From: Bacteroidetes bacterium HGW-Bacteroidetes-1 | Lineage (GTDB): Bacteria; Bacteroidota; Bacteroidia; Bacteroidales; F082 | Length of the DNA: 64,000 nt | NCBI GenBank assembly: GCA_002842755.1 | Contig: PHDU01000011.1 | Location: 1-64,000 of the forward strand | Reading direction: 5' to 3' | Shown: piece by piece, positions 9,115 to 42,697 of the stretch | How positions within the stretch are numbered: the first letter of the stretch is position 1 | How the letters are laid out: each line of letters begins with the position of its first letter | Position numbers and translations under genes: made by a program | Notes under the pieces: model-generated | What the model saw: the letters and a program-made list of their open reading frames with translations, nothing else | Told to the model about the DNA's origin: nothing | Databases searched by the model: none

Positions 9115-9489
9115 TTACCATGTTACAGATGTCGTATTAGCTTCATTGCACTTATGATTATAATTTGAAACAATGATTTCGGTATCGAACGGAATATCAT
9201 CAATATATTCTTCATCCTTTAATTCAAATAATTGCTCAGTTGCTACTATGGACTGATGCTCTTTTGCTATTTTTTCTGTGTCGAAAGGGATATCATCAAT
9301 GTAAGATTCCTCCTCAGATGTAAAAATATAATTGGTATCATGCGCAATTATCGACCGAAAAATTTCAATTGTATTAAATGGAATGTCGTCGATATAGGCT
9401 TCTTCTTTCATCTTAATTCCATCAGCCAAAGCGAAGGAGTAAAAAAAGATACTGAGTATTGTTGCTGTTAAGATATTTAGAGTTTTCAT
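9115..9489 (-). CDS. Small secreted protein with three YIDDIPFxT repeats (paralogue A)
   Basis: A 124-residue protein I cannot assign to a named family. Signal peptide 1-22 (cleavage after ALA). The mature part holds three 12-residue acidic motifs: EEAYIDDIPFNT (29-40), EESYIDDIPFDT (60-71) and DEEYIDDIPFDT (92-103), separated by about 20 less conserved residues. A paralogue at 42302-42697 has the same motifs at exactly the same residue numbers. The protein is presumably periplasmic or exported. The gene is monocistronic, with a terminator downstream and, upstream, a sigma-54-like element and an operator-like element shared with the paralogue. Possible roles (metal or partner binding by the Asp/Glu-rich motifs, envelope stress protein) are guesses. 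Confidence 0.8.
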   Translation of the reverse strand: MKTLNILTATILSIFFYSFALADGIKMKEEAYIDDIPFNTIEIFRSIIAHDTNYIFTSEEESYIDDIPFDTEKIAKEHQSIVATEQLFELKDEEYIDDIPFDTEIIVSNYNHKCNEANTTSVTW

Positions 9490-9539
9490 GGCAATTATGT
9501 TTTTTTGTTCAAGTAGTTTATTTTCGTTTTCTCTATAAA

Positions 9540-9555
9540 TACCAACTTTGTGCCA
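9540..9555 (-). promoter_or_regulatory. Sigma-54-like -24/-12 promoter element of paralogue A
   Basis: On the minus strand TTGGCACAAAGTTGGTA has the -24 TGGCAC and, at sigma-54 spacing (10 bp between GG and the -12 G), TGGT in place of TTGC. The start of transcription would lie near 9529, giving a leader of about 40 nt. The -12 half is imperfect; support comes from the equally placed, better match before paralogue B. Confidence 0.5.
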
Positions 9556-9633: not shown

Positions 9634-9660
9634 CGGACACTTTTGTACGTAGATGTACAG
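9634..9660 (-). promoter_or_regulatory. Conserved upstream operator-like element (site A)
   Basis: On the minus strand CTGTACATCTACGTACAAAAG followed by TGTCCG matches the element at 42142-42168 at 23 of 27 positions. Its core is the near-palindrome CGTACA-AAAG-TGTCCG (9634-9649). It ends 78 bp upstream of the -24 box, the same distance as at paralogue B, as expected for an upstream activating site of an enhancer-binding protein. Confidence 0.65.
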
Positions 9661-37736: not shown

Positions 37737-38885
37737 TTATTGCTCGTCAGGAAATTTATCAGGGCGACTATAGGCTGGATTGGTAAGAAATCCTTCGTCA
37801 TGCAATGTCCGAATAAAAGCTTTCAAGTCTTCTTTTTGAGTAGATGTTAGCTGCACACCTCCTCGCAACACATGGTGCATGAGTGGATTAATTTGCTCTG
37901 ACCATTTTACATGATGGGAATAAAAATCGATAACTTCATCAAGAGAAGAAAATCGTCCATCATGCATATAAGGTCCCGTTAATTCAATATTACGTAAAGT
38001 AGGTGCTTTGTAAGCCCCTTTATCAGTTATGTTTCCGGTGATCGAAAAGCGATCAAGTAAATCTGTGAAAACGGTATCCTTTCCATTGTTATAAAATAAA
38101 TGTGTTGTAAACAAAGGATTGCCGCCACCTCCATGACAGTGAAAACAATCGGCTCCTTCCTCTGTTGTAAATAACACAAAACCATTCAGCTCCGATGAAG
38201 AAAGTTGCTCCTCGCCTTTAAGAAAACGATCAAATTTGGCATTAGCTGAAACGAGTGAACGAACAAACTGGGCAATTGCTTTTTCAATATTCTTAAACGT
38301 AATTGAACTACTTCCAAAAGATTTAAAAAAAAGCTCAGGATACCCATCAATGGATTGAAAAAGTTGCTTGACTTTTGTCGTATCACCCCCAATCTCATCT
38401 TCAGCCAAAACAGCAATCCTTACAAAATCTTCCAAATTTCGAAAGTTAGTATTAGGATTATCATTAAATAAAAAGCCATTCCAGCCATAACCGCTTTGAT
38501 TCCAAACGAGGTTAATCAAAGGTAACATCACATGCTGGGTTTGAATTCCAGTTAAACCATGGACAAAACCTCCCTCAAAAACAGGATGATTGCTTCCGGC
38601 TTCGAAACTGTTAGCCTGAATATGGCATGTACCACAACTCATGAGCGAATCAGGGTGCGTGCGTCCGCTTAGCCTGCCATCATAAAAAAGAAATCTACCC
38701 AACTCAACCCCTTCAACAGTCATTGGATTGTTTACCGGAATATTCATTTTGGTCGGAAAAGCAAAAGGTATATCAAAAGTATAAGGAGTTGGTTTATATA
38801 CCGGTTCTTCCTTACTATTTTTTTCACAAGAAAGAATAACAAGAATAATTAGCAAAAGAAAAAAAAGGCTGAGGTTTTTAATCAT
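37737..38885 (-). CDS. MbnH-like diheme peroxidase (MauG/cytochrome c peroxidase family), lipoprotein
   Basis: A 382-residue protein with a lipobox (Cys20 in VILSCEK) and two c-type heme motifs, Cys84-GT-Cys87-His88 and Cys247-FH-Cys250-His251. The core 'GVELGRFLFYDGRLSG', 'PTLRNIELTGPYMHDGRF' and 'FYSHHV' are the family blocks. Known: in this family CcpA reduces peroxide, MauG matures a tryptophan cofactor, and MbnH converts a tryptophan of its partner MbnP to kynurenine. The gene directly upstream (10-bp gap) encodes an MbnP-like protein, so the MbnH role is favoured over peroxide defence. It is membrane-anchored facing the periplasm or cell surface. Confidence 0.88.
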   Translation of the reverse strand: MIKNLSLFFLLLIILVILSCEKNSKEEPVYKPTPYTFDIPFAFPTKMNIPVNNPMTVEGVELGRFLFYDGRLSGRTHPDSLMSCGTCHIQANSFEAGSNHPVFEGGFVHGLTGIQTQHVMLPLINLVWNQSGYGWNGFLFNDNPNTNFRNLEDFVRIAVLAEDEIGGDTTKVKQLFQSIDGYPELFFKSFGSSSITFKNIEKAIAQFVRSLVSANAKFDRFLKGEEQLSSSELNGFVLFTTEEGADCFHCHGGGGNPLFTTHLFYNNGKDTVFTDLLDRFSITGNITDKGAYKAPTLRNIELTGPYMHDGRFSSLDEVIDFYSHHVKWSEQINPLMHHVLRGGVQLTSTQKEDLKAFIRTLHDEGFLTNPAYSRPDKFPDEQ

Positions 38886-38895
38886 TATTTGTCAA

Positions 38896-39759
38896 CTATT
38901 TAACAGTAAGTCTAAAAACATCGATACCGTTTTCACAGGCCTTTTTCATAGCCTTTTGTTGCTGCATTATACTTCCTCCCCAAATATTATGATCATAAAT
39001 ATTTGGATTTTTAAACCAATTCTCGATTTTCATCTCAAGTTGCAGTTTGGTGCTCTTTGAAGCATGGACTGAAAATGATGTATCCTCAAAACGAACATCA
39101 AAATAGTTTTGAATGAATCCAATTATTGGCATTGTTTTTTCTGGCGGCGTATAACCTTCGCAATGCGCAGAAGTGCAGCACGCACTTCTGCTAACATAGC
39201 TTGATTTAGGCGCCAAAGTATCATAAACCTGACCAATACCCAAATGGAAATTGAAAGGTTGCGCAACATCGTCTGTGTTGATCCATTTGCCGTTCAGTTT
39301 CATATAATGATAACCTCCACCCAGATAATCCGGCCAAAACATAAACGATTCCGGTGGGTTAACAAAACGCAACGACTTGTTTTGTAATTCATTCATTCCA
39401 AAAGTAAAACTCAAACCCGTATAATCTCCTGACTTAACACCGAAACCCAGATCGAGTTGCATACTTTCCGGGATATCAGAATCAATATAAAAAATATCTC
39501 CCTCTTTTCCAATCAATATTGTTGATCCATCCGCACGATGCAACTTTAGATCTGATATCATCCACTGAATTTCACTCACAAGATATTTATTTCCTGCAGC
39601 ATTTGTATAGATCATTTGATCCGTTTCAAGCTGTTTTCCATCTACAGTATGATTAATTTCAATGATAATATTACCTTCATCCGTTTCTTGCTTACTCTGA
39701 TTTTTGTTACAAGAAACAAGAGATACAGCCATGAATAATGTAATTAATATCCTTTTCAT
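38896..39759 (-). CDS. MbnP-like copper-binding lipoprotein
   Basis: A 287-residue lipoprotein (lipobox Cys17, SLVSCNK). Pattern 'YLVSEIQWMISDLKLHRADGS', 'LGFGVKSGDYTGLSFTFGMNE', 'MFWPDYLGGGYHYMKLNGKW' and 'FNFHLGIG' matches the MbnP family, with a Cys/His cluster ACCTSAHCEG (about 193-202) and several His/Met/Trp residues for metal binding. Known: MbnP binds copper after one Trp is oxidised to kynurenine by the diheme MbnH. First gene of a two-gene operon with the diheme enzyme; an exact -7 box lies 40 bp upstream. Confidence 0.82.
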   Translation of the reverse strand: MKRILITLFMAVSLVSCNKNQSKQETDEGNIIIEINHTVDGKQLETDQMIYTNAAGNKYLVSEIQWMISDLKLHRADGSTILIGKEGDIFYIDSDIPESMQLDLGFGVKSGDYTGLSFTFGMNELQNKSLRFVNPPESFMFWPDYLGGGYHYMKLNGKWINTDDVAQPFNFHLGIGQVYDTLAPKSSYVSRSACCTSAHCEGYTPPEKTMPIIGFIQNYFDVRFEDTSFSVHASKSTKLQLEMKIENWFKNPNIYDHNIWGGSIMQQQKAMKKACENGIDVFRLTVK

Positions 39760-42141: not shown

Positions 42142-42168
42142 CTGTACATAAACGAACAAAAGTGTTCG
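42142..42168 (+). promoter_or_regulatory. Conserved upstream operator-like element (site B)
   Basis: CTGTACATAAACGAACAAAAG followed by TGTTCG. The core CGAACA-AAAG-TGTTCG (42153-42168) is a perfect 6+6 inverted repeat with a 4-bp spacer. It matches site A (9634-9660) at 23 of 27 positions and ends 77 bp before the -24 box, within one base pair of the spacing at site A. Confidence 0.7.
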
Positions 42169-42244
42169 ACAAAGCACGGTTTACGTCCAATAAAAAATAC
42201 AATTTTTTATATATATTAAATTGATTATATGATACTTACAAAAA

Positions 42245-42261
42245 TTGGCACGCTGTTAGCA
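42245..42261 (+). promoter_or_regulatory. Sigma-54-like -24/-12 promoter element of paralogue B
   Basis: TTGGCACGCTGTTAGCA: the -24 half TGGCACG is exact and the -12 half TAGC differs from TTGC at one base, with the invariant GG and GC separated by exactly 10 bp. Transcription would start near 42272, a leader of about 30 nt. A TATAAT-like string nearby does not fit the Bacteroidota housekeeping consensus. Confidence 0.62.
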
Positions 42262-42301
42262 ATGGGTATAATAAACATAAAGAACTTAAAAATAAAAAGC
42301 C

Positions 42302-42697
42302 ATGAAAACTCAAAGCATAATCACAGCCATCCTGATCAGCGTCATTTTTCAAACAACAATATTCGCTGATAATTTTAAAATGAAAGACGAAAAATACATC
42401 GATGATATCCCTTTTAATACTGTTGAAATATTCAATAAATATATGTTATCGGACACGAGTTTTACGCAAAAAATGGATCAAGAAACCTATGTACCAGATA
42501 TTCCTTTTGATACCCAGAAAATAGCCAGCGATCAACTTTCTGAAGAGGCTACGGCTCAAACATTCAAGTTAGAAGAAGAAGCATATATTCCTGATATTCC
42601 TTTTAATACCCGGGAAATCTCCTACAAAACACGAAACATCGCTACACACAGTTCTTCCACAGCTATTTTACGCTACCTGCTTGTGATAAAAAAGTAA
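42302..42697 (+). CDS. Small secreted protein with three Y-x-x-DIPF-x-T repeats (paralogue B)
   Basis: A 131-residue protein with signal peptide 1-22 (TTIFA) and three acidic motifs: DEKYIDDIPFNT (29-40), QETYVPDIPFDT (60-71) and EEAYIPDIPFNT (92-103). They fall at exactly the residue numbers of paralogue A (9115-9489), and the segment NFKMKDEKYIDDIPFNTVEIF aligns closely with its counterpart there. The C-terminus differs (STAILRYLLVIKK, more hydrophobic and basic). Monocistronic: sigma-54-like promoter and operator-like site upstream, strong terminator downstream. No known family recognised; likely exported, function unknown. Confidence 0.82.
   Translation: MKTQSIITAILISVIFQTTIFADNFKMKDEKYIDDIPFNTVEIFNKYMLSDTSFTQKMDQETYVPDIPFDTQKIASDQLSEEATAQTFKLEEEAYIPDIPFNTREISYKTRNIATHSSSTAILRYLLVIKK

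Follow-up and report, generated by a model that had tools for sequence, protein, structure and literature searches.

A putative sigma-54 regulon joining small secreted repeat proteins to efflux and envelope genes in a Bacteroidales genome

Two genes for small secreted repeat proteins, located on opposite strands of a 64,000-nucleotide stretch of the genome of Bacteroidetes bacterium HGW-Bacteroidetes-1 (the window), share a promoter architecture that recurs elsewhere in this genome and in its relatives. The window is part of contig C56 of a 4.23-Mb assembly of 195 contigs that is 98% complete. We consider it likely that these genes, named DIPF genes below, form one sigma-54 regulon with an HlyD-ABC operon, MacB/FtsX-type ABC genes, a TolC-like gene and an S49 peptidase gene, under the control of an enhancer-binding protein (EBP) encoded on contig C147. 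The observed basis of this reading is the sequence architecture, its conservation, the co-occurrence with the EBP, the helical phasing and the gene content, from which we infer binding, looping, sigma-54 dependence, the inducing signal and the function of the DIPF proteins. The earlier note had postulated a dedicated regulon; a regulon is supported by our results, but it is not confined to the two repeat proteins, since ABC/efflux, TolC-like and S49-protease genes are included.

In the proposed mechanism, sigma-54 RNA polymerase would transcribe both DIPF genes from a -24/-12 promoter in which GG-N10-G is kept and the following C mostly is not. The C147 response-regulator EBP, encoded with a histidine kinase, would bind to TGTNCG-N4-CGNACA inverted repeats, present singly or in pairs some 90 bp upstream, and, placed on a fixed helical face, would loop onto the polymerase. 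The same EBP would switch on the divergent HlyD-ABC operon, the MacB/FtsX-type ABC genes, the TolC-like outer-membrane factor and the S49 peptidase. This gene content (HlyD-ABC, MacB/FtsX, TolC-like, S49) points to an envelope-stress/efflux response, of which the DIPF proteins would be small acidic secreted members. Activator, site, preferred helical face and genes are proposed here together and are testable in one cultured relative.

Sigma-54 promoters follow the consensus GG-N10-GC, with TGGCAC at -24 and TTGCW at -12, and need an enhancer protein bound upstream. On the plus strand of the window, the -24/-12-like box TGGCACGCTGTTAGCA (42246..42261; predicted transcription start near 42272-42273) precedes the gene of P0001 (131 aa; 42302..42697). 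On the minus strand, the box TGGCACAAAGTTGGTA (9540..9555; predicted start near 9528-9529) precedes the gene of P0002 (124 aa; 9115..9489). The letters read here agree exactly with the boxes reported before, TGGCACG-CTGT-TAGC at 42246-42260 (+) and TGGCACA-AAGT-TGGT at 9541-9555 (-), and the -12 half of both is off consensus (TAGC and TGGT). The 27-bp upstream element was likewise found as described, as CTGTACATAAACGAACAAAAGTGTTCG at 42142-42168 (+) and CTGTACATCTACGTACAAAAGTGTCCG at 9634-9660 (-), and the gaps to the -24 boxes are the 77 and 78 bp given earlier. With up to 3 mismatches, 26 letters of the element have exactly two copies in the whole 4.23-Mb assembly, both in the window, and a reversed-control element has none in the whole assembly at the same tolerance. 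The paired pattern TGCCA-N74..84-CGNACANNNNTGTNCG gave 22 matches in 61 genomes versus 2 for its reversed control; by eye, 3 or more of the 22 resemble chance matches.

The earlier note described a palindromic core of the element, CGNACA-N4-TGTNCG, as perfect in one copy. This holds: the inverted symmetry is perfect only in the plus-strand copy, CGAACA-AAAG-TGTTCG (42153..42168, +), the second copy reading CGTACA-AAAG-TGTCCG (9634..9649, -). However, this palindrome is not the natural unit, and corresponds to the junction between two TGTNCG-N4-CGNACA repeats, in the plus-strand copy between one repeat and the following half-site TGTTCG. The true site unit is TGTNCG-N4-CGNACA (= TGT-N10-ACA), often repeated about 21 bp further. 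The candidate upstream activator sites identified in the window by letters and by site scan are TGTACA-TAAA-CGAACA (42143..42158, +) and TGTACA-TCTA-CGTACA (9644..9659, -). At a score of at least 9/10 these are the only two sites in the window, both at the promoters under study, against about 0.9 expected per window by base-shuffling. It is therefore position and pairing, not the site alone, that make the element non-random.

P0001 and P0002 each have a signal peptide (by eye) and three EEAYIDDIPFDT-type repeats around E-E-x-Y-I-x-D-I-P-F-[DN]-T, and we refer to this small secreted repeat family as DIPF proteins. Searches of Pfam and NCBIfam with both proteins gave no family over the curated cut-off. 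Homologues were detected in 30 of the 61 genomes searched (29/37 in the window's own family, 1/24 in others), the named ones being from three MAGs labelled Bacteroidetes, Lentimicrobiaceae and Bacteroidales bacterium. After one ORF without a usable start (L061) was dropped, 70 DIPF genes were extracted. When TGGCA[CT] was sought between 36 and 119 bp upstream of the start codon, with TGGCAY as the sole selection, a -24/-12-like box was present in 43 of them; L047, which has only 15 bp of upstream sequence, was counted among the 27 genes without a box. The TGTNCG-N4-CGNACA site, at a score of at least 8/10, was found in 41/43 boxed promoters versus 104/2150 shuffles (5%). T and A are kept at -9/-8 relative to the box in 42/43 and 39/43 promoters, and at -32/-31 in 40/43 and 40/43. 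Many promoters have CAAA at positions +26 to +29 from the box, where a sigma-54 transcript, expected to begin about 12 bp downstream of the -12 element, would start.

The -12 C is kept in only 6 of the 43 boxed promoters and missing in 37, and some upstream AT-rich columns are as conserved as the -12 half. These features would fit a promoter of another sigma factor that happens to contain TGGCAC, the inverted repeat then being the operator of an unrelated regulator. We regard this as quite improbable. The -12 G, which lies outside the selection, is kept in 41/43 promoters and with it the GG-N10-G spacing (GG itself by selection), and rpoN, on whose presence the earlier sigma-54 proposal depended, was identified at C187 (Sigma54_AID, E 7.3e-13). 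Moreover, the site lies about 90 bp upstream, as an enhancer would, and also beside an EBP gene, and most unboxed DIPF genes have a TAnnTTTG promoter instead. The consensus of IHF is WATCAA-N4-TTR; a block resembling it has a positional mean score of 6.65/9 at -20 (next 4.7), reaches 8/9 or more in only 11/43 promoters versus 10% of shuffles, and at its position in the window (42226..42238, +) is weak, with 6/9 letters. IHF-assisted looping is only an idea raised by this pattern.

Within 90 bp of the start codon, TAnnTTTG was found in 21/27 unboxed DIPF genes versus 2/43 boxed ones. In the available text of a study of Flavobacterium psychrophilum, TAnnTTTG is the -7 box of the primary sigma factor (PMC9723704), so DIPF genes appear to carry either a sigma-54 switch or a housekeeping-type promoter. 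Both promoter classes coexist in many genomes that have the EBP, and some of the members with a TAnnTTTG-type promoter instead belong to genomes where the activator was not found. Three such genomes (G001, G014 and G033) have 4 DIPF genes, none with a full site (score of at least 8) plus box, the single gene of G001 having a TGGCAT box; these small numbers hint that lack of an EBP orthologue goes with lack of the full switch.

A promoter profile built from sequence only, with 36 elements (7 of the 43 DIPF sequences were left out), gave 8 matches in the window's own genome at E<1e-3. Three are DIPF genes. The other five precede an S49 peptidase gene on C195, an ABC ATPase gene on C189 that is followed by genes for two MacB/FtsX-type permeases (one Pfam-tested, the second named by eye), the genes of an HlyD-family adaptor and an ABC ATPase on C147, and, both named by eye, a TolC-like gene on C107 and a further ABC ATPase gene on C48. 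At the S49-peptidase promoter TTTGCAT stands where TTGGCAC is expected. The canonical consensus TTGGCAYN5TNGCW was near background in this genome, with 7 matches versus 4 in the control, and only one of the 8 profile matches (C56:42245) is among its matches, so that a plain consensus scan would miss most of the regulon. In the relatives the same gene classes recur (by eye), together with small secreted TonB_C proteins, of which the one tested was over the Pfam cut-off, and secreted LExWM-repeat proteins. DIPF genes are paralogous and sometimes tandem, and the shared architecture could in principle be the mere remnant of a duplicated gene and its upstream DNA. The occurrence of the same element before unrelated genes already contradicts this, the stretch between site and promoter is poorly conserved in sequence, and the spacing shifts by whole helical turns; we give such an origin almost no credence.

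For 41 DIPF sites the spacing was determined between the second half-site and the -24 box. It was 91-95 bp in 35 of them, 84 bp in one and 104 bp in two; the other three, at 70-73 bp, were probably scored on the second repeat of the same array. A second promoter set comprised 60 stretches, namely 4 own-genome matches and 56 hand-picked from relatives among the matches listed. It was drawn almost wholly from the upper part of the match list, with L244 chosen for adjoining an EBP, and is not purely non-DIPF, as it includes three divergent DIPF-type stretches (L191-L193). Its gene names were mostly given by eye, Pfam being run on ten proteins, and for several stretches a downstream ORF was not found. 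Seven of the 60 stretches lack TGGCA in the expected place and were excluded from the spacing count. Among the matches listed, the 52 scored promoters of this set fell into clusters at 69-74 (9), 81-83 (5), 91-95 (31) and 101-104 bp (7), a geometry that is partly selected because the profile was trained on DIPF promoters. When the shifted sites of both sets (76-89 or >96 bp) were pooled, 14/15 among the matches listed lay no more than 2 bp from 82.5 or 103.5, the two values that differ from the mode by one helical turn (binomial p 3e-7, a value that, like the other p-values here, is optimistic, as related promoters do not count as independent cases). Promoters of one kind of ABC ATPase (grouped by eye) have the site at 82-83 bp (L188, L239), 93 bp (L233) or 103-104 bp (L215, L217, L237, L240). 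Such whole-turn shifts would be the expected trace of an activator confined to one face of the helix.

The earlier note had suggested that the activator gene might carry the site itself. Seven clear EBP genes were found in the genome, and only that at C147:16606 proved to have a site (score of at least 9, in a search reaching 1.5 kb to either side of the AAA+ match); it lies in two copies, 22 bp apart, between the EBP gene and a divergent HlyD-ABC operon. The C147 EBP has 459 residues with Response_reg, Sigma54_activat and HTH_8 (Fis-type) domains by Pfam, and a loop motif that reads GAFTDA in translation. The histidine kinase encoded after it has two TM-like segments with almost no loop between them. 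Among orthologues covered to their end, the HTH region is nearly invariant. NifA has its own type of N-terminal regulatory domain, which is not a receiver; the receiver domain of the C147 EBP speaks against its being NifA, and only its site resembles that of NifA. Identity with PspF or NtrC was considered and not adopted. A second receiver-type EBP gene lies near the candidate activator and kinase (L186:7305-8648, contig C147), with no score-9 site within 1.5 kb.

With cut-offs of E<=1e-45 for an EBP orthologue and E<=1e-6 for a strong profile match, both were present in 28 genomes of the window's family, the element only in one (G015, 83% complete), the EBP only in none and neither in 8 (p=2e-7). 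For all 61 genomes the corresponding counts were 35/3/1/22, and 30/8/1/22 with a stricter EBP cut-off of 1e-60; the one genome with the EBP and no strong element at 1e-45 is G056. With an element cut-off of 1e-10, 10/36 EBP-bearing genomes had no such match. The co-occurrence is slightly circular, because the sole 1e-6 match in G030 is the divergent promoter of the EBP itself, and that in G049 is of that promoter kind. In a phylum sample, 3/197 other genomes had a 1e-6 match, the scan scoring 16 candidates per genome under strict filters, so that absences are weak; for two of the three the promoter is HlyD-type (by eye) and the locus holds a similar EBP, and the third matches the promoter half only.

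These data bear on whether one or several of the other six clear EBPs activate the sigma-54 promoters, the C147 EBP governing only its own divergent operon. In favour of this, the genome does hold seven such proteins, and in G042 and G059 strong elements occur without an EBP match at 1e-45, each adjoining another EBP-type gene that is not orthologous at the cut-off, which suggests that related EBPs may share the site. However, the C147:16606 EBP is the only one with the site nearby, the 28/1/0/8 distribution ties the element to it within the family, and a similar EBP is found in the locus for two of the three phylum-level matches. Control by the other EBPs is thus improbable in our judgement, and the C147 EBP is retained as the candidate activator of the regulon.

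The predicted site shows likeness to that of NifA, which, as the available sources describe it, has the same outer trinucleotides and spacing (TGT-N10-ACA) about 100 bp or more upstream of the start at a -24/-12 promoter. It differs in also keeping its inner TCG/CGA letters; the candidate activator carries a receiver, and the targets are efflux and envelope genes, not nif genes. Bce-type peptide-sensing modules consist of a two-TM kinase, a response regulator and an ABC transporter. The C147 kinase, two-TM-like with almost no loop and encoded beside ABC efflux genes, recalls them; the output of Bce-type modules is an OmpR-type regulator, whereas that of C147 would be a sigma-54 EBP.

In the available text of two studies, envelope-stress and ABC-permease genes of Bacteroidota are already assigned to sigma-54 (PMC9723704, PMC12316311). 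In F. psychrophilum, of the same phylum, the -24/-12 promoters of the sigma-54 regulon were mapped by 5'-end RNA-seq, and the targets include protein quality-control, envelope-stress and exported unknown proteins (PMC9723704). In what is available of that report, activators are not assigned; its selected table is dominated by chaperones, proteases and gliding genes and lacks an HlyD/MacB/TolC set, and no upstream site is given. A PSSM survey across bacteria predicted FtsX/antimicrobial-peptide ABC permeases in Bacteroidia and TonB (COG0810) in Flavobacteriia as targets (PMC12316311). These ABC-permease and TonB targets are like ours; 'UAS' is absent from the main text of the survey, and the passages available name no activator and no repeat proteins. 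Our literature search, made with terms other than the motif letters and covering mainly the main text of freely readable papers, found no description of the upstream site, activator or DIPF protein of such a regulon, and in the literature covered no Bacteroidota sigma-54 activator with an assigned site was found.

Through these promoters, a nameless secreted repeat family gains a regulatory context in the envelope and efflux response. DIPF proteins are acidic, with a median net charge of -16 (n=70; range -31 to -3). AlphaFold2 models of the two window proteins and three homologues from named contigs gave a mean pLDDT of 54.8 and a pTM of 0.16, and no fold is claimed. In the three named contigs, the protein continues after its DIPF repeats with a TonB_C-like region. 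The Pfam match of this region stays below cut-off (E 0.006), and the region resembles the stand-alone TonB_C protein of the same regulon (33% over 58 residues). Upstream of these fusions (L007:9887, L008:9875, L009:10001), a TGGCAT box is preceded at 92 bp by a TGT-N10-ACA site. Relatives from other families of the order encode small secreted LExWM(xxPF)-repeat proteins downstream of the same element (L194, L195, L199, L220); the one tested, L194, had no Pfam match. They look like counterparts of the DIPF proteins. As a guess, DIPF proteins may serve as secreted binding or decoy proteins in envelope stress. A bolder idea, which we hold to be rather doubtful, is that one sigma-54 envelope response uses DIPF and LExWM-repeat proteins interchangeably, as fast-evolving effectors. 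As such they would be secreted acidic strings of short motifs that bind one shared partner, such as cationic peptides or part of the export/proteolysis machinery, with the TonB_C-like domain either fused to DIPF repeats or separate under the same kind of promoter.

Several further observations were made during the scans. The element-bearing TolC-like gene is repeatedly divergent from a gene for a large secreted-looking protein (L200, L203, L223, L227, L229, L243, L245), and by eye the intergenic region may serve both genes. Element matches in relatives also precede an S46-peptidase-like protein and NUDIX-like proteins (L235, L201, L202; names by eye). In the window itself, a di-haem cytochrome c peroxidase-like gene adjoins an MbnP-like gene at 37737-39759 (names by eye).
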